A stretch of DNA of 64,000 bases from an uncultured Flavobacteriaceae bacterium (GTDB lineage: Bacteria; Bacteroidota; Bacteroidia; Flavobacteriales; Flavobacteriaceae). The notes under the pieces were generated by a model. The model had not been told where the DNA came from, made no database searches, and saw nothing but the letters and a program-made list of their open reading frames with translations. The DNA lies in NCBI GenBank assembly GCA_943789365.1, contig CALSTV010000001.1:248001-312000 (forward strand), read 5' to 3'. The translations under genes were made by a program, and so were the position numbers. Shown here piece after piece: positions 8,266 through 41,033 of the stretch (within the stretch, counting starts at the first letter, position 1; each line of letters opens with the position of its first letter).

Positions 8266-8577
8266 AAATCTATGTTGTATATTTAGAGTACTGACTTTTA
8301 CATGGCAATGCTAAAAGTCATTTTTTCTATTTGTTAATAATTGCTGCAAAAATACAAAATATAGCTTGTATTTGAAAGCTGTACCCCTCATGATTCCTTG
8401 AATTCCACAAAGATAAATGACATTGAAATTTTAAGATTAGGAAAATTACACAATTTTCAAAATAGCTTCTAAAAATTAACAATCTCACAATTATTAAATC
8501 CAAAAAAAGGCATTGCTTAGGACATTTTAGAAGAATTCTAAAAATAATTTCATAATTCGAAATGGAATGTTATAAAA
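8266..8577. other. intergenic region upstream of acnB
   Basis: About 310 AT-rich bases between the acnB start and the 3' end of RNase P RNA. It should contain the acnB promoter. I see no open frame, strong hairpin or repeat in it. Confidence 0.4.
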
Positions 8578-8880
8578 AAGTAGGCCTATAAGCCGAATTC
8601 TGTCACCGTTAATAAACGGGTTCTTATCATTTATCTAGTTCCAAAATTACTTATGGAATCCATCTGCCTACCCCTTGGAATCGGGCGAGTAGCCCTCAAG
8701 CTCCAATGTACATGGCATTGCATCGTATAGAGTTTACCTGGTTTCACTACAGCCGAACTGTACTTGCTTTCTGTTGCACTTGTCCTCAACTCGCGTTGGA
8801 CGGATGTTATCCGCTATACTACTCTCTGATGTCCGGACTTTCCTTTCCCAATAAATTGAGACGATAAGACGGCCTACTTT
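8578..8880 (-). ncRNA. rnpB: RNase P RNA component
   Basis: Read on the minus strand, the segment shows the universal RNase P core: GGAAAGTCCGGACATCAGAG near the 5' end, AGTATAGCGGATAAC, AACGCGAG, ACAAGTGCAACAGAAAGC, a GGTAAACTC block, and the 3' core GACAGAATTCGGCTTAT. The termini (AAGTAGGCC and GGCCTACTT) pair to form helix P1. It is a bacterial type A-like ribozyme that removes 5' leaders from tRNA precursors. The 3' strand of P1 runs into TTTTTT, which probably ends transcription. The ends are estimated from P1 pairing. Confidence 0.95.
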
Positions 8881-14000: not shown

Positions 14001-14240
14001 GTTTTACATGAAGTAATACAGATAGCACCAATGTTCAGAGGATCGCGTAGTCAGATAGTCAATTAGTCTGTTCTTGTTATCGATATCAATACTGTAAATA
14101 GGTCACGAAGTCGTGCCGTCTATGGGGCGAGCATTTAGATCTTTGGTTCAAGCAATTTATGGGGTAGTGCATTCTATGACAACATTCAAATTAGTTTGGA
14201 GACCAAAATTCAGACCTGTCCACCGAAGTGCAACAAAGGA
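14001..14240. other. gene-free spacer next to repeat array
   Basis: No open frame with coding character, RNA or hairpin is recognised. Short variants of GTAGTCAGATAGTC-like words occur, possibly decayed relatives of the adjacent array. Confidence 0.3.
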
Positions 14241-14775
14241 GGAAGACTAGAAGACCAGCAGACCGGATGACCAGCCACCAGCCACCAGCCGACCAGCAGA
14301 CTAGAAGACCAGCAGACCAACCACCAGCCACCAGCCACCAGCCACTAGCCACTAGCCGACCAGCAGACTAGATGAACAGTAGACCAGCAACCAGCCACTA
14401 GCCACCAGCCGACCAACAGACTAGATGAACAGTAGACCAGCAACCAGCAACCAGCCACTAGCCACCAGCCGACCAGCAGACTAGATGAACAGTAGACCAG
14501 CAACCAGCAACCAGCAGACTAGAAGACCAGCCACTAGCCACCAGCCGACCAACAGACTAGATGAACAGTAGACCAGCAACCAGCAGACCAGCAACCAGCA
14601 ACCAGCAGACTAGAAGACCAGCCACTAGCCACCAGCCGACCAACGGACTAGATGAACAGTAGACCAGCAACCAGCAGACCAGCAACCAGCAACCAGCAAC
14701 CAGCCACTAGCCACCAGCCGACCAACAGACTAGATGAACAGCAGACCAGCAACCAGCCGACCAGCAGACTAAAAG
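14241..14775. repeat. complex heptamer-based tandem repeat array
   Basis: About 535 bases built of 7-base words (CCAGCAA, CCAGCCA, CTAGCCA, CCAGCCG, ACCAACA). A higher-order unit of roughly 55-90 bases contains GACTAGATGAACAG, which recurs at least six times. There are no unique spacers and no leader, so it is not a CRISPR array. Translated frames give only low-complexity peptides. It ends about 70 bases before the pyrG promoter. Confidence 0.85.
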
Positions 14776-14843
14776 ACAATTCTACCACAATACAAGGAAT
14801 ACCAATTGCGAATATGTACAATGCAAACTTTTGCTGTAATTGG

Positions 14844-28428: not shown

Positions 28429-30642
28429 TTATTTATTTAAGGTAGGATCTAATTTCCTAAACGCTTTTGGGTACTCCTTTGTGACACCAAAATTTTCAAT
28501 AGAAACATCAAAAGGTTTGAATCCTGTTGCTTTGATTAATTTTTTATTTGTGATTCGGTAATCATATTTCTCCAAGTTCTTAAACTTAGGGTCCATTACA
28601 ACTCCATGTGCTTCAATCCCGTTTTTGCGTTTCAATTCTAAATCTTCTTTTGCTCCGGGCCACCAGTACGCATTGTAGTCCATATTGTACTCGTATGGCA
28701 TTGGCTTTGTACCTGCTACATGTACAAACATTTTACCCCATTTAAAAATAGTGTTTGGTACAAATTTTTCATCCGAACTGTAAATGATATTTCTACGAAT
28801 ATCAGACTCAGGGATAAAGAATTGTTGTGGATACGCTCTAAAGTGAATTCCTCTCGCACAATCGATAATAATATTGTTTTCAATAGTATTGATTCCTTTG
28901 TGAATAAAAGCAGAGTTTCCTGACTTGTGTACAATATTGTTTACCAAGGTTGTGCCTTCTTGCCAGTCATCGGTTCTAAATCCTACATGAGGTACGTCGT
29001 AGATATAGTTATGACGTATCATGTTTCCAGTTCCTGCTCCTGAGATATTAATACTAGAACCATCACTTAATTTTAATAATGTACGTTCTGCTCTATTGTA
29101 TTCAACGGTGTTATTTCTAGCGTGTAAATACTGTGCATAACGTCTTTGAGGTGTTAAGGTACTGTCTACTGTTTTTTCAATTTCATTCCATCGAATGGTA
29201 CGTGCAGCTTCATCGAAATTCTTTTCTGGCTTCATTAATATCTGACAACGTACGCCGCACAATCCTATGGCTTTTCTAGGTACATCGTGTACATAGTTGT
29301 TAGCAATGGTATTGCCTCCACTTTGCCAAGCAAAAATAGCGTGACCATGCCAAATTACCTGACCTACGTGGTGCAGGATGTTGTTTTTTATACTGTTGTT
29401 TTTATTCACATCTTTGGTACCTGGCCCGTAGCCAACCAATAGAATTCCCATATGACCTACATAGTCGATATAGTTATTTTCCACTTTGATGTTTTGGGCA
29501 TGTAAGTCCAAACGCATTCCCGAACCTCCGCTGTTTGTAAAGCGACTTTCGGTAACACTACAGTTCTCAGCACCTCTAAAACGAAGCAATGCATTTCCAT
29601 AGTCGAAAGTATCCCAGTCATGTTGAATACCCCATCCTTTTCTGTTTTTAAACCAAACTGAACGATCCCCATGTGTAAAGGTCAAGCCTTTAAAGTGAAG
29701 GTTCTGAACAGGAATATCTTTAGCTAAATCGTATTGAATTTTCCCTTCTACTTTGAATAGTTCCATTAACTTAGGCGCTACTATATTGTCTGAAGGCTTT
29801 CCTTCTTTTGGCCAGTAGTAGATTTTTCTGGTTTGTGTATTAACACACCATTCTCCTGGCTCATCTAAATAGTCAATTACATTTTCTACCCATGCAATAG
29901 AGTGTTTTGGGTTTGTAAATGGCATCGCATTGGCTTCAAAGGCTAAATATCCCACTTTGTTTTCCACATCTACAGATTCCAACTGAATGATGTTCAAATT
30001 CCATGGTACTGGATTGAAAACTACCTCTACATCAGATAAATTTGACCAATCTTTGATTTCTTCATTTGGATAGGGCACCATTCTAAGATGAATTCTGTCC
30101 TTATGATAATATGTGTTCTGAGAGTCTGCTCTACGAATATGTTTTTTTAGAGGCATTTTAAAATCAGCACTTCTTGCTCGCGTTAGCATATGATCGCCAT
30201 CAAATAAGGTGCGGAACGTAGTTACATTAGCAGGCATATTGGCTACATACACTTTTCCTTTCGCACTTGCAGGCATTCCTGCTACCGCTCCTGCCAATTC
30301 CCAACCAGACACTGACTGACCAGAACTAATAACCGGTTTTTCATTTTTATATGCTTGGTAGGTTACTTTGAAATCTCCATTTGTTCCATCTTCCAAACCA
30401 AACACTACGGTTTCGTTTAAGGTATAGGTTCCTCCCATTAAGTGTATGGTTAGATCTTCTGAAAGCCCTTTTTTTATTTCTTTTCGCACTGCAAGTCGTG
30501 CTTTGTTTATAGTTTTATAGGGTGCTTTTACCGTTCCTTTGTTAGTATCACTCCCTTTTGGAGATACATAAATGTCTTTTGCAAAGCCAAATTGTAAAGC
30601 TAAAAAACAAAGAATTAGACTGTAGCTATTTTTAGTCGTCAT
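28429..30642 (-). CDS. periplasmic right-handed beta-helix protein (GH120/GH141-like layout)
   Basis: 737 residues, first gene of the five-gene minus-strand operon. A signal peptide ends FGFAKD; then IYVSPKGSDTNKGT, LMGGTYTL, VVFGLEDG, VISSGQSVSGW, insert strap IYYWPKEG, and helix motifs NSGGSGMRLDLHAQ, GHMGILLVGYGPGTKDVNKNN, VPRKAIGLCGVR and RTDDWQEGTT. Nearly every one of these is shared with the lipoprotein paralogue 26127-28403, so both likely cleave related bonds from different positions (soluble versus anchored). No T9SS domain. The enzymatic reaction is not known. Confidence 0.83.
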   Translation of the reverse strand: MTTKNSYSLILCFLALQFGFAKDIYVSPKGSDTNKGTVKAPYKTINKARLAVRKEIKKGLSEDLTIHLMGGTYTLNETVVFGLEDGTNGDFKVTYQAYKNEKPVISSGQSVSGWELAGAVAGMPASAKGKVYVANMPANVTTFRTLFDGDHMLTRARSADFKMPLKKHIRRADSQNTYYHKDRIHLRMVPYPNEEIKDWSNLSDVEVVFNPVPWNLNIIQLESVDVENKVGYLAFEANAMPFTNPKHSIAWVENVIDYLDEPGEWCVNTQTRKIYYWPKEGKPSDNIVAPKLMELFKVEGKIQYDLAKDIPVQNLHFKGLTFTHGDRSVWFKNRKGWGIQHDWDTFDYGNALLRFRGAENCSVTESRFTNSGGSGMRLDLHAQNIKVENNYIDYVGHMGILLVGYGPGTKDVNKNNSIKNNILHHVGQVIWHGHAIFAWQSGGNTIANNYVHDVPRKAIGLCGVRCQILMKPEKNFDEAARTIRWNEIEKTVDSTLTPQRRYAQYLHARNNTVEYNRAERTLLKLSDGSSINISGAGTGNMIRHNYIYDVPHVGFRTDDWQEGTTLVNNIVHKSGNSAFIHKGINTIENNIIIDCARGIHFRAYPQQFFIPESDIRRNIIYSSDEKFVPNTIFKWGKMFVHVAGTKPMPYEYNMDYNAYWWPGAKEDLELKRKNGIEAHGVVMDPKFKNLEKYDYRITNKKLIKATGFKPFDVSIENFGVTKEYPKAFRKLDPTLNK

Positions 30643-30992: not shown

Positions 30993-32261
30993 ATGAAAAA
31001 AATTACTTTAATAATCCTTTTGGGATTTTCAACGGCGGTATTCAGTCAAGGTCCATGGGAATTTAGCAACACACTTGATGGATGGACTTCAGGAGCCTCA
31101 TATGGTTTGAACTCCGACCACATTACATTCACACTAAACAGCGGAAACACTACTGTGCTAGAACACGCCACTTTAAATGTAAATGGTGATAACAATGCTA
31201 TTGTTGCCGTGACTTTAAAAAACACAAGCGACGGTTCAGGGCCTACCGAATTAAGAGCCACCTTTAAAAAAGACGACGGTTCCGGAAACATCAACAGAAA
31301 AGAACTCGCCCTAGATAATAATGACAATTCTTTACGCACCTATTATATCGACTTATCCAATTCTAACTGGAACAACGATAGCCATGATGGCGCGAGTACG
31401 GTTACAGACAGAGGCGAACAATTTTTTCAAATTCATCTTAGAAACAGTAATGGTTCAGGTGAAACTGTAGAAATTCATAAAATTGAATTTCTAGCATTTG
31501 AACCGAAACCAGAATTGGTAAGTTACACTTTCGAGACAGATACCGATGAAGAAGGATGGGTTTTCAACGGAGTACAAGATAATTATACCGTTGCCAGTGA
31601 CGTTTTAAACATTGAACTACCGGCCACAACGGTAAACGACGAAATTGTGGAATTCGATCAAACAGAATACCAAATAGATGCTGACTCCTATGACTATGTA
31701 AATATCATATATAGAAATGAATCCGAAAACGACGAATTTAGATTTCAATTTAGAAGTATTGAAAACAACTATGGCAATCTTTATGGCGTAAATATGACTT
31801 TAACCGAAAACATGATCTCACCAAGCTTTGGTCTTATGCAAATTGACCTAAAAAACATTAGTTCAAACAGTTGGAAAGGTACCACCTTTGATTTTAGAAT
31901 CTTAATTCGAAACGAAGAAGAACAGGCAAACAATCCGGCTTTTAGCAACGATATTACAACACCAGGGAACTTTATTATTGAAAGTATAACTTTTTCTAAC
32001 CTATCTTTATTGGGCAACGAAGAAGAAACAATAGGAAATGCAATTATTTCGTTATACCCAAACCCAGCAAACAACCTCCTAAACATCAAAAGCTCCACTC
32101 CTATTGACTCAATTGAAATTCACAATATTTTGGGTCAACGTATAACTTCTATACAAGGAAGCAACCAAATAGACGTAAGCAATCTTACTAACGGAACATA
32201 TACATGCAAAATATATCTTGAAGATGGTTCTGTGATTATAAAACGATTTGTAAAGCAATAA
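30993..32261 (+). CDS. T9SS-exported protein with two CBM-like beta-sandwich modules
   Basis: 422 residues: signal peptide (MKKITLIILLGFSTAVFSQ); module 1 (about 20-170, WEFSNTLDGW ... IHKIEFL); module 2 (about 178-345, YTFETDTDEEGWVFNG, NESENDEFRFQF, TTPGNFIIESITF); and a type A T9SS sorting domain (SLYPNPANN to the C terminus). The start of each module, F-(E/D)-T-x-x-x-(E/D)-GW, is typical of jelly-roll carbohydrate-binding domains. No catalytic residues are evident. It is probably a surface or secreted glycan-binding protein. Related to 38011-39357 and to the second half of 35211-36930. Own terminator. Confidence 0.82.
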   Translation: MKKITLIILLGFSTAVFSQGPWEFSNTLDGWTSGASYGLNSDHITFTLNSGNTTVLEHATLNVNGDNNAIVAVTLKNTSDGSGPTELRATFKKDDGSGNINRKELALDNNDNSLRTYYIDLSNSNWNNDSHDGASTVTDRGEQFFQIHLRNSNGSGETVEIHKIEFLAFEPKPELVSYTFETDTDEEGWVFNGVQDNYTVASDVLNIELPATTVNDEIVEFDQTEYQIDADSYDYVNIIYRNESENDEFRFQFRSIENNYGNLYGVNMTLTENMISPSFGLMQIDLKNISSNSWKGTTFDFRILIRNEEEQANNPAFSNDITTPGNFIIESITFSNLSLLGNEEETIGNAIISLYPNPANNLLNIKSSTPIDSIEIHNILGQRITSIQGSNQIDVSNLTNGTYTCKIYLEDGSVIIKRFVKQ

Positions 32262-32326: not shown

Positions 32327-32652
32327 TTTTTTTTTATTTATTAAACCTACTACCCTATATGTACCTTTTTTACACTTCAACAAAAAAACAAACCAATTAA
32401 GAATTAAGTTTCTTATTTGAACTCAAAAAATCACTTCTTAAAATTAACAACACAAAATATAAAACTAAAAACAACCCCACCTAACCCCTTACTAACACTC
32501 GCCTTAAACAGCCCCCCCTTTCTCAACAGCTTCAAACAAGCACAAAAAATAATTTACATACGGTACATCTGTAGTATCATTTGGGATAAATAGCCTCATT
32601 GGTATTCTTTTTTATTCGTCTCTTGTGGGCTACAATCTAACCCAACTATTCA
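32327..32652. other. intergenic region with a C7 tract
   Basis: About 330 bases, notably C-rich in places on the plus strand (blocks of C and a run of seven C at 32512-32518). It precedes the disrupted P-domain gene and should carry its promoter. No gene is seen. Confidence 0.4.
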
Positions 32653-34209
32653 ATGAAAAAAAGTACGCTTTTCAGTTATTTATTTTTCTGCGTTTTTCTA
32701 TCGCAGATGTATGCACAAACTCCCCCTCCCATAAACGGGGTAACATGCTCACCAAGCAGTCCAAGCTCCTATATTATATACGGAAGACTTTGAATATGCT
32801 TCTTCGGCAGATGCCATGTCTAACGGAGGATGGAGTGGAGACATTAAAGACCACAATCAAAGCATCAACTATCCAAAAAACGGTGTTTGGGGAATTACGC
32901 TCGAATCTGAAATGCGATCTGGAGGAACAGGTCCAGACGCAGCACATTCAGAAAACAAATATTTTATGTTCGACGCAAACGGAGCTACCAATCGTGCAAA
33001 GGCCGTAAGTCCAGATGGCACTATCATTGACCTTGTTCCTGGAAGATGGGATGCAGGCGGTTATTATATAAATACTGTTTTCGATGACGAGGCGGTAGAA
33101 ATCATTGAAGAAAATGGTGTTGCACAATCTCCATACACCGGTTCTTTTCAACCTGATGGACAATTGTCAGATTTAGACGACACCCATTCTACAGGGGAAT
33201 GGAAACTTCGTATTTGGGATTTCTTGATTGAAGATTCAGGTACTTTAGATAGCTGGAGTATTCAAATTGTTGGAACTGCTCAAGACCTTGACAACGACGG
33301 AATTGACAACAACTTTGACATCTGCCCAGAACTTGCCAATCCTGAGCAAGAAGATTTTGACAACGATGGCATTGGAGATTTATGTGATGATGATATTGAT
33401 AATGATGGTGTTTTAAACGGCATTGACAACTGTAACTATACGCCTCTAGGAGATGCAGTCGATATTTACGGATGTACTATCTTTTCGTTACCTGCTACTA
33501 ATTTCACAAATAAAATTTCTAGTGAAACCTGTAACAATAGCAATAACGGAAGTATTTATATTGAGGCCATTGAATTGTATAATTACACGGCGCATTTGGT
33601 TGGAAATGGTTTAGACCGCATTCAAACATTTGATAGCGCTACCCTTTTCAATAACTTAGAGGCTGGAGCTCTATGAAATATGCATTTCTGTGGAGAGTCA
33701 AGAAGACTATGAACTTTGTTTTGATGCCGTGATTACGGAACCTGAGGATTTTACAGTGGTTTCTAAAACAGATAAAACAAATGGTGAGCTCAATTTAGCA
33801 CTTACTGGAGGCGCTAATTATTATATTGAACTCAATGGTACATATCACTACCACAACAGACGATGAAGTTTCTATTAAGCTTGAAAGTGGCATCAATCAG
33901 CTTTCAATAACTACGGATAAAAACTGCCAAGGTGTCTTTACTAAAACGATCAACAATTCAGTTGAACCCCTTGTCTATCCAAATCCTATTTCGGATGAAC
34001 ACATCCTTAACATTGTACTCAATAACACAGAATTGAGCGAAGTACATGTGACTTTAGCTTCACAAATGGGACAAGTAATTTTCTCAGAAAACATTCAATT
34101 AAATGCTGGAACAGGTACCATAGACATCTCAAACCTTGCCTCTGGTTTATACATACTTACGATCCCTTCAAATGAAGGCATCTCTAATATTAAAATCATA
34201 AAAAATTAA
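32653..34209 (+). pseudogene. T9SS protein with P-domain and thrombospondin type 3 repeats, frameshifted
   Basis: A signal peptide starts at ATG 32653 (MKKSTLFSYLFFCVFLSQMYAQ). The frame changes between 32744 and 32793, then reads a proprotein-convertase P-domain (TGEWKLRIWDFLIEDSGTLDSWSIQI), calcium-binding type 3 repeats (DLDNDGIDNN, DFDNDGIGDLCDDDIDNDGV) and a beta-sandwich. A second shift lies at about 33665-33672 (GAL-stop, with YEICISVESQEDYELCF continuing in another frame) and a third at about 33838. The end is a T9SS sorting domain (VYPNPISD). Protein similarity continues across all three breaks, so this is either a recent pseudogene or a run of single-base sequence errors. Intact relatives sit beside the FnIII lipoprotein that follows. 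Confidence 0.8.
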
Positions 34210-34939: not shown

Positions 34940-35210
34940 TTTGTTTTAATCCGTTTCTTAATTCTCCAAGAAAAAAATCACAACAAGTTCAATTCATTAC
35001 ATCCATTTGTTTTAACAAAATGAATACCACTCTCTTTACTACCCCCCCCCTTATAATCAACACTCTACACTATTAAACCATTTCTCCTACATACAACACC
35101 AATAGCCCTATCATTGCCTATTTTGCAAGATTTAAACAAGAACTTGTAAGATATGGACTGTTTTTTTTTTCGATAAATTTATAATTTGCTTTGACCTAAA
35201 CTTAATAATT
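34940..35210. other. intergenic region with C9 and T10 homopolymers
   Basis: It contains nine consecutive C at 35042-35050 and a run of about ten T near 35161-35170, upstream of the disrupted gene at 35211. Long C-tracts are rare in this AT-rich sequence. The gene promoter should lie between 35170 and 35210 but is not a clean consensus. Confidence 0.5.
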
Positions 35211-36930
35211 ATGAAAAAAATTACTTGCATTGCCACTTTGTTAGCGGCGTCCCTGTCTTTTGGACAAAACTTAGCGACCAATGGAGATTTTGAGAGCTCC
35301 AATCCTTACGACAATGTGGCGCATGGACAACCCACCGATGACCCATCATTGCTTTCAACAAATTACATTGATGACACCTATTTTAAAAGGGCAAAAAACA
35401 ATAAATACGGGTTTATAGAAGAAACCGACCCTAGTTTTATCCAAGGCACAAGAGGTGCTAAGTTACCAGTAGACTCCGGAATGCACATACGCTATGGAGT
35501 GCACTCCATTCTAACTCCTGGAGTTACCTATACCATAAAAATTGATTTCCATGCGCTTGAAGGTGCTGTCTATAACAAAGCATTTAGTTTTAATTATTAC
35601 CAAGGCTCTAATAAAAACATTGGTGGTATTGGTAGCAATTACAAACCAACCCTTGGATGGACAACCTGGAGCAGTCAGTTTAACTATGCAGATATCAATA
35701 CCTACCCGGAATATGATTCGGAATCTACAAGTGAATATATTCACTTTGGTATTGCGCAAGGTACGCAAACAACCGCTACCTATATTGACAATCTAGAAAT
35801 CGTTATTTTAGGGTGTATTCAAGAAGATATCCAATTTGAAAACGGAACAACTTCTGCAACCAGTATTTATGCGAATGATGTGAACAATGGTGTTCCCGTA
35901 AGCCATTGGCTCTAACGCCAAGCCTGACTTCCGCTATGCTTTCTACGAAGCTGACGGTACCACCAAGTGCTGACTGCCAAGTTCACCTTAAATCCTGACG
36001 GTACTATTACCGCCGTCTCGAGCTACTGAAGACACCGATTACAAGACTCACGTACAAGCTTAACAAGTACTGCGCGACGCCGACAGCTCTGGTACTAACG
36101 ACTGGGATGAAATTACGCAAACAATTCGAATAGCAGCACCTATCGTTTATTTACCGGAAAAGAACGTATTTTCGTTTGACACCGACGATGATTTAGAAGG
36201 TTGGGTAGACAATACTTTTGTAGGAGCACCAACGGTGGTTTCTGGAGGTGCAATGACGGTTACGCTTCCTCCATTACCAGTAGACATTAATACCCCTTTA
36301 AAAACCATCCTTGACCATACAGGAACAAGTGTAAACCCTCAGAACAACGATTATGTTTACATCCGTTATCAAAACAATTCTGACAATGAAACGTTTCGCT
36401 TTCAAATGACCAATAACAGCGGTGAAAATCAAGGATATGTTATAGACAATGGAACCGACTTTAAAATTAATACTACTGGCTACGAAGTATTACAAATTCA
36501 TTTAGCAGCACAGAGTAAATGGTCTACGGCAATCAATGCAACGAATTTCCAAATGCAGGTGAGAAATGAAGTGCTGCAGGCTAATGACGGGTATATTGGA
36601 GACATCACTTCTCCCGGTACATTTATTGTAGACCAAATCGTCTTTAGCAGCCTTCCAACATGGGAGGAAGTAGAAGAAGAATTATCAATAGACAACATCA
36701 TCAAAGAAGATGCTAGTATTGCGTTGTACCCCAACCCGGTGAATGCCGTTTTAAATATTCAATCTAACAACGAAATTGATTCGGTAACCATATGCAATGC
36801 GGTTGGTCAAAACGTGCTTATTCACAATAGCTCTGCTATGGATGTGAGTCATTTACCTAAGGGAATTTACATATGTATCATACAACAGAGCAATGGAAAC
36901 ATTTCTACAAAACGCTTTGTAAAAAACTAA
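35211..36930 (+). pseudogene. T9SS protein with CBM-like modules, multiply disrupted
   Basis: An intact N-terminal part (234 codons) has a signal peptide (ITCIATLLAASLSFGQ) and a CBM4/9-like sandwich (TNGDFESSNPYD ... TYIDNLEIVIL). After GVPVS the frame breaks. Protein-like segments continue in changing frames (GSNAKPDFRYAFYEADGTTK; VLTAKFTLNPDGTITA; ATEDTDYKTHVQA then a TAA; QVLRDADSSGTNDWDEITQT) between about 35905 and 36120. A long in-frame part with VFSFDTDDDLEGWV and NETFRFQM resembles module 2 of 30993 and 38011, ending in a T9SS sorting domain (LYPNPVNAV). The broken patch has about 51% GC by hand count, well above its surroundings. Pseudogene, chimera or assembly error are all possible. 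Confidence 0.78.
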
Positions 36931-38010: not shown

Positions 38011-39357
38011 ATGAAAAAAATTATTCTTTTATTTCTTTTTATTCCATTCATAGGAATCGCACAAACGCTATTTGAATTTAATACCGCGGGAAATTTGGAA
38101 GGTTGGGACGTATGTGACAGTTGTTCTGCCACTTATCCGAACACTACCGATAATACAGGTGCACTTACTTTAAAATACACTGGGAAAAATGGAAATTTAA
38201 TAAAGGACGACTTGGCGGTAAATGGATCTACTTATAAAGTTATTGCTATTACACTTAAAAATGTTGCAGCCACGGGTCCAGACGAAATTCAAGTACGATT
38301 TCCAAAAAATGATTTAACGGATGCCAAAGAAACTTTTACCATTCCTCAAAGCATGACAGAATTTGTTACTTTCGAAATAGACTTAAGTGGCAATACTTCT
38401 TGGGGAGATGATGAAGGTAACGCCCTACAGGATGGTCTTGGAACAGATGATGGTTTAGAGAACTATATAAAATTAGTCCCGAGATCAGGGGGTGGTAAAT
38501 ACAATGGTAGTAACGAAGAAATTATCATCTCAAAAATTGAATTTTTAGAAGAATTATCTCCTCTACCTCAAAAATTAGATTATACATTTGATACTCTAGA
38601 CGACGTAGAAGGCTGGGTAGGAAATGGCAAACTCGAAGAGGATATAAGTATCGTAGTGGATGAAGGCTTAAAAATAAAATTTTATGATGTATCACTAGCT
38701 ACGGATGGAAAAGCAGCCATTGATCAACCAAACTACAGTGTCGATCCAAGTGCGTACCAATACCTCTATGTTGTATATAAAAACGAATCTAGTAACGACA
38801 CGTTCAGATTTCAATACGGAACGGAAGACGGGAATAGCTCTATAAGCCGAAATACTTCAGCGGGAGAAAACCCTTTGTTAATAAACACTACTGGGGCACA
38901 TGTACTTAAATTTGATTTCACTGCCGTGGACAATTGGAAATTAAAAGATTATGCCTTTGACTTCAACATTCAAATAAAAAACGAAGGATTTGAAGCGGCT
39001 GAAGCTGGGTTTAATGAAGATGTATCTACACCCGGTACTTTTTATATTAAAAGGCTGCTGTTTAGTGACCAAAACTACGACGAATCACAAATGATAAACA
39101 ATTTCACACTCGACACTAAAAACACGGCTTCTAAAGAAGCTAATATTGTGCTATCCCCTAACCCTGTTGAAAACACATTTACAGTGCATTCGGACCAACG
39201 CATTGCTAAAATAGAAGTATACAATAGCTTAGGACAAATAGTACTGACTGGCAACAATAACACCGCAAATGTTAACCAGCTACACAATGGCATCTATACT
39301 TGTAAAATATACCAAGCTGATGGAAGTGTAACTACAAAACGCTTTGTAAAACAATAA
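38011..39357 (+). CDS. T9SS-exported protein with two CBM-like beta-sandwich modules
   Basis: About 448 residues from ATG at 38011 (MKKIILLFLFIPFIGIAQ signal peptide). Module 1 (about 20-180) begins FEFNTAGNLEGWDV; module 2 (about 190-360) begins YTFDTLDDVEGWVGNG and contains NESSNDTFRFQY and STPGTFYIKRLLF. A type A T9SS sorting domain follows (LSPNPVENT ... GIYTCKIYQADGS). The same two-module plan is seen in 30993-32261, with closely matching sorting domains (TCKIY.(A/E)DGSV..KRFVKQ). Probable extracellular glycan-binding protein; no catalytic signature. Own promoter and terminator. Confidence 0.82.
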   Translation: MKKIILLFLFIPFIGIAQTLFEFNTAGNLEGWDVCDSCSATYPNTTDNTGALTLKYTGKNGNLIKDDLAVNGSTYKVIAITLKNVAATGPDEIQVRFPKNDLTDAKETFTIPQSMTEFVTFEIDLSGNTSWGDDEGNALQDGLGTDDGLENYIKLVPRSGGGKYNGSNEEIIISKIEFLEELSPLPQKLDYTFDTLDDVEGWVGNGKLEEDISIVVDEGLKIKFYDVSLATDGKAAIDQPNYSVDPSAYQYLYVVYKNESSNDTFRFQYGTEDGNSSISRNTSAGENPLLINTTGAHVLKFDFTAVDNWKLKDYAFDFNIQIKNEGFEAAEAGFNEDVSTPGTFYIKRLLFSDQNYDESQMINNFTLDTKNTASKEANIVLSPNPVENTFTVHSDQRIAKIEVYNSLGQIVLTGNNNTANVNQLHNGIYTCKIYQADGSVTTKRFVKQ

Positions 39358-39536: not shown

Positions 39537-41033
39537 ATGAATTACCTAAAAAAAATCGCTCTGCCTTTATTCGTATTGACAACGCTCGTTGCTTGTCAAG
39601 ATAAAACAAGTAACACACAAAAGAGTACGAAACCAGAGAATAGCAAACCAAACATCTTATTGATCTATACGGACGATCAAGGAACCTTAGATGCAGGTTG
39701 CTATGGTGTTACAGACATCAAAACACCTGTGCTAGACAAATTGGCCGAAACCGGGATTCGTTTTACGCAGGCCTATGCGCATACCGTTTGTTGTCCTTCT
39801 AGGGCTGCATTACTTACCGGTAGAGCACCACAAAGAGGCGGTGTGAATCAATGGACTTCCTGTAGCCCTGCCGATAAAGAAGGACGTGTTTTAGATTTAA
39901 AAGAGATTACCATTGCAGAACATTTAAAAAATTATGGATATGCTACCGGACTCATTGGAAAATGGCATTTAGGAGCTACGATGGATCATGGCCCCTTAGA
40001 CCAAGGCTTTGATACTTTTTATGGATTTAGAGGTGGTTTTATCGATTACTACAGCCATAAATTTCTACATGCCAAATGGCAGAAACCACAGTTCCATGAT
40101 TTGTACAATGGAAAAGAAGAAATTTTTGAAGACGGTACGTATTTCCCGGATTTACAAGTGGCACAGGCTCATAAATTCTTGGAAAGGAATACCGAAAATC
40201 CTTTCTTTTTGTATTTACCATTTAACTTACCGCATTATCCAGAACAACCAGACAATAAGTTTACCGCTCAATACAAAGATTTAGACTGGCCTAGAAGTTC
40301 GTATGCTCCTATGATTACGACTGTAGACGACCGAATTGGACAAGTACTAAATAAACTTGATGCTTTAGGTTTAAGAGAAAACACCATTATTATTTACATG
40401 AGTGATAACGGACATTCTACCGAGGATTATTACAACTGGCAAGTTAGTTATGGTGGTAATGGTGGCGGTGGCTATACCGGAAAATGGAGAGGTGCCAAAG
40501 GAAGCTTTTTTGAAGGAGGACTTAGAGTACCAGCAATTATAAGCTATCCAAAAGAATTACCACAAGGCGAAGTGCGAGACCAAGCCATTATAAATTTAGA
40601 CATCTTACCTACCCTATGTGAGTTGTTAGACATTCCTGTACCTAAAAACAAACTCGATGGAAAAAGTATCGTACCTGTACTTAAATCCAAAGACGCAGCA
40701 TCACCACATAAAGCCATGCATTGGATGTGGCAAGAAATGTGGGCTGTAAGAGAGGGCAACTGGAAATTGATTTACAAAGGGCATGATACTACAGGAAAAT
40801 ATAGCACACATCCTGAAAAAGAGTTTGAAATGCCTGAATACTATTTGGCAAAACTCGACGATGAAAACCCTGAAGAAATCAATTACGCAGCTACACAACC
40901 AAAAATTGTAGCGAAACTCTTGAAATTACATCAAGATTGGGCTAAAGATGTATTTGAAGGTTCTGGCTACCCAGACCCTAACCTGGTCAAAGAAGTCAAA
41001 TCAGCCCAAAAGCTCGGAACTACAAAATTGTAA
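39537..41033 (+). CDS. S1-family sulfatase, lipoprotein
   Basis: 498 residues with a lipobox VACQ (Cys20). Metal-binding Asp46-Asp47 in YTDDQG; formylglycine motif CCPSR with Cys85 as the modified residue; GKWHLG (Lys/His of the active site); MSDNGH (second metal pair). It removes sulfate esters from glycans. The YTDDQG / CCPSR / KWHLG set is typical of PUL sulfatases acting on algal or animal glycans. Single-gene unit with its own promoter and a strong terminator, in the middle of T9SS module genes. It is only distantly related to the sulfatase at 22335-23888, so the two probably remove different sulfates. Confidence 0.93.
   Translation: MNYLKKIALPLFVLTTLVACQDKTSNTQKSTKPENSKPNILLIYTDDQGTLDAGCYGVTDIKTPVLDKLAETGIRFTQAYAHTVCCPSRAALLTGRAPQRGGVNQWTSCSPADKEGRVLDLKEITIAEHLKNYGYATGLIGKWHLGATMDHGPLDQGFDTFYGFRGGFIDYYSHKFLHAKWQKPQFHDLYNGKEEIFEDGTYFPDLQVAQAHKFLERNTENPFFLYLPFNLPHYPEQPDNKFTAQYKDLDWPRSSYAPMITTVDDRIGQVLNKLDALGLRENTIIIYMSDNGHSTEDYYNWQVSYGGNGGGGYTGKWRGAKGSFFEGGLRVPAIISYPKELPQGEVRDQAIINLDILPTLCELLDIPVPKNKLDGKSIVPVLKSKDAASPHKAMHWMWQEMWAVREGNWKLIYKGHDTTGKYSTHPEKEFEMPEYYLAKLDDENPEEINYAATQPKIVAKLLKLHQDWAKDVFEGSGYPDPNLVKEVKSAQKLGTTKL

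Follow-up and report, generated by a model that had tools for sequence, protein, structure and literature searches.

In natural transformation, short segments of foreign DNA reportedly replace resident sequence through homology-facilitated or double illegitimate recombination, as Harms and colleagues are said to have described in 2016. The locus described here resembles such replacements in being a short stretch of odd composition that lies in an otherwise normal gene and bears no mark of a mobile element. It differs in that neither a donor nor microhomology could be demonstrated, and in that the stretch, of about 200 bases, is itself frame-broken. Pseudogenes of T9SS cargo provide a second comparison, in which a premature stop and frame breaks sever the sorting tail as they do here; in the present gene, however, the breaks are in one short segment with foreign-looking codons and the flanks are clean. 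Indel errors of long reads, which according to passages of PMC12007338 fall predominantly at homopolymers, likewise split genes by indel-type breaks, but homopolymers are absent from the breaks at this locus and indels would leave the codon shift unexplained. Finally, two kinds of flavobacterial surface-protein domain, He_PIG-type Ig-like repeats (L062) and TSP3-type D/N-rich stretches (L063), show weak in-order similarity running from the flank of the stretch into the stretch itself, although the latter has no Pfam match, the two likenesses disagree with each other and the GC3 of L062 is 0.33. A record-level literature search showed no report of a comparable patch; passages of PMC8116780, PMC6321871 and PMC12007338 were also consulted.

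The window, that is, the whole stretch of 64,000 bases that was analysed, corresponds to positions 248001-312000 on the 3.69-Mb main contig of a Flavobacteriaceae genome of 3.73 Mb in 3 contigs, with a completeness of 99.84% and a contamination of 0.42%. It also holds an RNase P RNA (class A) on the minus strand at 8573-8880 (203.9 bits). Several T9SS cargo genes lie near the broken gene, and the surroundings resemble a region for polysaccharide use. The features concerned are as follows, in window coordinates.

28429-30642: beta-helix / GH141-like protein
32653-34209, plus strand: neighbouring T9SS gene with P-domain, TSP type-3 repeats and sorting tail, composition not raised
35211-35901, plus strand: 5' part of the broken gene, beginning like a signal peptide and carrying an orphan module of ~200 residues, in an intact frame with host-like codon use
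35903-36108, plus strand: the patch, GC-rich, with C/T-ending codons and divided into three to five protein-like pieces whose reading frame shifts from one to the next
35905-35967, plus strand: piece 1, reading IGSNAKPDFRYAFYEADGTTK
35970-36026, plus strand: piece 2, reading LTAKFTLNPDGTITAVSSY in a different frame from piece 1
36028-36073, plus strand: pieces 3 and 4, read either as EDTDYKT followed by TYKLNKYC, further frame changes included, or as a single frame with a TAA at 36061
36076-36120, plus strand: piece 5, reading DADSSGTNDWD and continuing into the downstream frame, with host-like codons returning about here
36109-36930, plus strand: 3' part of the broken gene, with a paralogue-like module and a T9SS sorting tail, intact and out of frame with the start
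39537-41033: sulfatase

The GC content of the patch (35903-36108) was 51.5%, compared with 39.3% upstream and 38.6% downstream in the rest of the gene, and that of 35900-36099 was 51.0%, in agreement with the value near 51% given by the initial annotation. Segmentation by base composition placed the best single segment from 35895 to 36089-36106 with a score of 7.9, and other genes among the 75 ORFs scored up to 17.9. At least as high a GC content was found in 24 of 5476 windows of 200 bases, of which 19 lie in two degenerate repeat arrays, one is the patch and four are elsewhere. In plain base composition, the patch is unexceptional. One of the arrays is made of short units, is GC-rich (53%), contains no long ORF and spans 14150-14800, where no Rfam match was found; the second, with a different unit, is at positions 1-700 of the stretch L035.

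The coding potential of the patch was evaluated by choosing a path through the reading frames solely according to the likeness of its residues to protein. Each frame change was penalised, and the residue frequencies came from six coding stretches nearby, which included both flanks of the gene itself. Under a mild penalty, the path reads through the five peptides listed above, and its score was matched by 1 of 500 shuffles of the patch and, when the run was repeated, by 0 of 1000. Under two stricter penalties, two internal frame changes were kept and the TAA at 36061 was crossed; 1 or 8 of 500 shuffles then equalled the path, and 7 of 1000 did so in another run. Intact coding stretches used as a control gave 0 of 500 shuffles at all three penalties. 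At the same three penalties, the counts per 500 shuffles were 13, 14 and 31 for the minus strand of the patch and 87, 54 and 23 for an intergenic stretch. In the patch, frame changes were located near 35902, 35968, 36027, 36049 and 36074. With the same settings, no frame change was found in 35211-35900 or in 36108-36866, where the scan ended.

The codon use of these pieces was also unlike that of the host. Their GC3 was 0.59; host windows of equal length averaged 0.31 (sd 0.07), and none of the 968 compared reached the value of the patch. Synonymous choices as improbable as those of the patch occurred in 3 of the 968. The patch thus has codon use outside the host range, as an acquired segment would. 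The gene's own flanks both have a GC3 of 0.35. High expression of a native sequence fails to account for the deviation, because the host ribosomal-protein genes have a GC3 of only 0.24 and so deviate in the opposite direction. The patch GC3 mostly restates the high GC content, since the observed value was reached by 41 of 1000 shuffles of the patch itself under the mild penalty and by 204 of 1000 under a strict one. A further property is the ending of free third positions in C or T, which amounted to 88% (mild) and 83% (strict), compared with shuffle means of 55% and 53%, and which none of 1000 shuffles reached; third-position choice played no part in choosing the coding path. From the protein-like path, the controls and this third-position preference, we conclude that the patch is most likely a former coding sequence of the plus strand that has been broken several times. 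The unusual codons and the several frame switches, including a stop, that had been noticed initially were thus both borne out.

On the 5' side of the patch, an ORF at 35211-35915 is closed by the TAA at 35913, shortly after the patch begins. Its N-terminus, MKKITCIATLLAASLSFGQ, looks like a signal peptide. The module that follows matched no Pfam or NCBIfam profile, and its relatives were limited to its own genome and one weak match, both among 60 related genomes and among 378 family genomes; an exact-peptide scan of GTDB contigs and a comparison with plasmids found none. An AlphaFold model of this module alone had a pLDDT of 31. On the 3' side, the downstream frame is open to 36930 and ends in a Por_Secre_tail domain (2.5e-12, 47.3 bits vs. 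a cut-off of 27), so that the C-terminal sorting domain of a T9SS cargo is present, though out of frame with the start. The downstream module is collinear with two paralogues in the window (31509-32255 and 38563-39351, 34-36% identity), and together with the sorting tail it was matched in 229 of the 299 family genomes searched, its own included; among the matches listed, most were to the tail region. The initial description of intact flanks collinear with paralogues therefore holds for the frames of both flanks, and for paralogy on the downstream side; the upstream flank has almost no relatives. No intact homologue of the whole gene was found in the 60 or 378 genomes, or in GTDB contigs by exact-peptide scan. 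The gene as assembled gives a truncated product lacking the sorting tail, and it shows the frame-breaking changes expected of a pseudogene, namely the TAA at 35913 and frame changes within a stretch that retains a coding signal.

Relatives of the patch were sought at several levels, as had been proposed at the outset. It matched a single place in its own genome at E 0.001. The class search (395 genomes) found it in its own genome only; the phylum search (395 genomes) added one match (G330, E 0.007, 1 of 395), a chance alignment within an unrelated protein, and hence yielded no clear relative. The family search (397 genomes) likewise gave no clear relative, and at E up to 0.1 the 50 of 397 genomes that matched, its own included, were at about the level of chance. 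Exact-peptide scans of GTDB contigs and IMG/VR gave no confirmed match, profile searches yielded neither a Pfam family, at E values up to 10, nor one from PHROGs or NCBIfam, and the PDB gave three matches at E 0.43 or worse. A phage origin was rejected, as the sole match was 33 bases in one phage (two records), antisense to a phage gene, and PHROGs gave none; a plasmid origin was rejected on a single match at E 3, and contamination with E. coli on the lack of any match in E. coli genomes. An insertion element or tandem repeat was also rejected, since the patch lacks terminal repeats, forms no tandem array and has no second copy, and no flanking duplications or inverted repeats marked an insertion. 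An 11-base direct repeat has one copy just 3' of the patch and the other 140 bases 5' of it. An identifiable donor or relative was thus not found in these collections, which gave two weak leads only.

The first lead is a gapless alignment of flank and patch with a D/N-rich part of a TSP3-type protein in one relative (G201), at 30% identity over 101 residues; 31 of these residues in G201 are D or N, and the stretch has 45.5% GC. The match, the best of the family search, has an E value of 5.7e-5 in 1 of 397 family genomes, or ~0.02 after allowing for the 397. Flank and patch together, and the patch alone, were each equalled by 0 of 1000 shuffles, and the flank alone by 103 of 1000. In the second lead, Ig-like repeats of another relative (G789) align to the same flank and patch with 24.7 bits and an E value of 0.02 in one genome, which is not significant. 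Here, 0 of 1982 scored shuffles and 0 of 1000 were as good as flank and patch together, 1 of 1000 was as good as the patch alone, and 212 of 1000 and 70 of 1993 were as good as the flank alone. The native flank by itself matches neither protein. Both leads were found with this same query among the 397 genomes, so that the shuffle tests are circular. Either alignment, if true, would mean that one domain begins in native DNA and continues into the patch, but the domains are of two different kinds, and at most one of the alignments can be right. An Ig-like (He_PIG) identity gained no profile match in Pfam up to E 10, the circular repeat match being all that pointed to it, and the G789 repeats themselves have a GC3 of 0.33 and ordinary codon use unlike that of the patch.

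The account that we favour, at slightly under an even chance, is that a linker, or a domain of a surface protein, had part of its sequence replaced by foreign coding DNA, which was broken on or before arrival and left a recent pseudogene. In this view the gene encodes a secreted surface protein (T9SS cargo), and the part in its middle would have been exchanged for some 200 bases of coding sequence whose source had a different codon preference, ending in C or T; the incoming segment would have been frame-broken already or have broken in the process. Ribosomes beginning at the normal start would then stop at the TAA at 35913, giving a product of ~234 residues without the sorting tail, which would reach the periplasm but undergo no T9SS secretion or anchoring, and the gene would since have been a recent pseudogene. 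The codon shift, the coding signal across several frames, the unbroken flanks and the out-of-frame sorting tail are observed; the foreign origin, the sequence of events, the recency and the consequence for secretion are inferred. A foreign source is supported by a GC3 that exceeds every sampled host window and is unlike that of the host ribosomal genes. Replacement is further favoured by the excess of C or T at free third positions, by the patch being the sole GC-rich gap of its type in the 676,302 bases sampled, by the confinement of the breaks found to it and by its occurrence at a single place in the genome. Homologous replacement would fit, because native flank and patch align in order to both G201 and G789, although these alignments carry the circularity noted above. 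The initial suggestion of a recombined or acquired piece accordingly gains from the codon evidence, and on the side of the donor it has only weak or chance matches in the collections searched. Counting against replacement are the lack of a donor and of an intact orthologue in the searches made, the conflict between the two weak leads, an unexceptional base composition, a GC3 that is not high given the composition of the patch itself and the lack of insertion marks at its edges, together with breaks in the neighbouring gene that involve no change of composition and hint at a regional cause.

Local misassembly is nearly as likely as replacement, with perhaps one chance in three. In this explanation, which we regard as a serious possibility, the patch and perhaps the neighbouring breaks are an uncorrected or chimeric consensus, such as a contaminating read or the collapse of a variable region could produce, and the gene of the living cell is intact. 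Several breaks crowded into 206 bases between clean flanks, and a patch with no convincing relative, are consistent with such a fault, as is the presence of two broken T9SS cargo genes within 4.3 kb. The neighbouring gene has about three breaks, near 32776, 33672 and 33842, none of them at homopolymers. Relatives are intact and collinear across the latter two, 42 of 60 genomes matching at 1e-5 (own genome and tail-only matches included), and in many of the matches a single open frame extends over almost all of the query, with 40% identity in the best of them. The break near 32776, within a TATATTATATA stretch, is a candidate, as the checks against relatives cover 33672 and 33842 only. For the paired broken genes, a regional cause, either relaxed selection or a poorly assembled stretch, fits as well as coincidence.

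The rarity of such breaks was assessed by running the coding model over the window and 32 further stretches, two of which overlap by 3.5 kb, for a total of 676,302 bases. Seven gaps of 60-400 bases that looked non-coding were found between segments on the same strand in different frames with no start codon nearby; the patch was the sole GC-rich one (50% GC by the model limits), the other six having 22-37%. Close frame changes with no start codon nearby numbered 5 in the 676,302 bases, a count that is no upper bound, as the filter is severe and misses the breaks of the neighbouring gene. A laxer filter over the first 276 kb gave six close frame changes, one within the neighbouring T9SS gene; of four cases inspected by eye, one was seemingly a true break and the rest were ordinary gene ends or unclear. 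This scarcity of clear breaks elsewhere also agrees with a local fault. Against an assembly fault, the longest run near the eight break sites (five in the patch, three in the neighbouring gene) was at most 3 bases, and 7 of 8 were below the background mean of 2.9, so that the homopolymer signature of long-read indels described in passages of PMC12007338 was found at none of the eight. The length of the main contig, the completeness and low contamination of the genome, the lack of an E. coli match and the restriction of phage similarity to 33 bases argue in the same direction. Because the breaks are off homopolymers and few occur elsewhere, generic read error is disfavoured; a local chimera is unaffected by this argument, and of the misassembly originally suggested it is the form that stays in contention.

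A C9 tract at 35042-35050 precedes the start of the patch-bearing gene by ~160 bases, and a C7 tract at 32512-32518 precedes that of the neighbouring broken gene by ~135; each is a possible phase-variable leader. The first 276 kb contain only these two C/G runs of at least 7, but 692 kb of the genome have seven, five of them elsewhere, and a link between poly-C and the broken genes is therefore not claimed. One of these five other C/G runs lies 84 bases upstream of a secreted-looking ORF (L094). The G11 and C9 runs at position 10524 of L086 and position 5550 of L096 are longer than the run-length distribution suggests and are possible hypervariable tracts.

That a native high-GC segment was always there and was broken in place after selection was lost is unlikely. 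The possibility that one domain spans the junction of native flank and patch (again circular), the 45.5% GC of the G201 stretch itself and the breaks in the neighbouring gene would suit it. However, the breaks found are confined to 206 of the gene's 1717 bases (12%), with none in the 1.45 kb of flanks, where slow decay should spread them; under uniform breakage and equal detectability, the probability that all would fall in the patch is 0.0017 for three breaks and 0.000025 for five. Such clustering would not look like the slow decay of an unselected gene, and decay in progress, as initially proposed, is disfavoured as the whole story. The contrast in GC3 between the patch and the flanks of the same gene also stands against it. 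A similarly improbable variant of the favoured replacement is that short degraded DNA was taken up, a foreign coding fragment of 200 bases, with several frame breaks beforehand, being patched into a surface-protein gene of a wild flavobacterium at matching domain positions with no mobile element involved. A functional non-coding or recoding element, such as a structured RNA, a translational bypass or a small mobile element, would suit a bounded single-copy stretch but is very improbable given the strong coding signal, the lack of terminal repeats, the lack of an Rfam match and a folding no better than that of shuffles (z +1.04; 173 of 200 shuffles folded at least as well), the last two being the grounds on which a structured RNA was rejected.

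If the patch is an artefact, the region at ~32.6-36.1 kb marks two secreted-protein genes that are unsafe to annotate as pseudogenes without a check of the reads. If it is real, the locus offers a bounded example of a normal gene into which a small coding fragment, broken and foreign in appearance, has been set, the kind of trace expected from short-fragment recombination.
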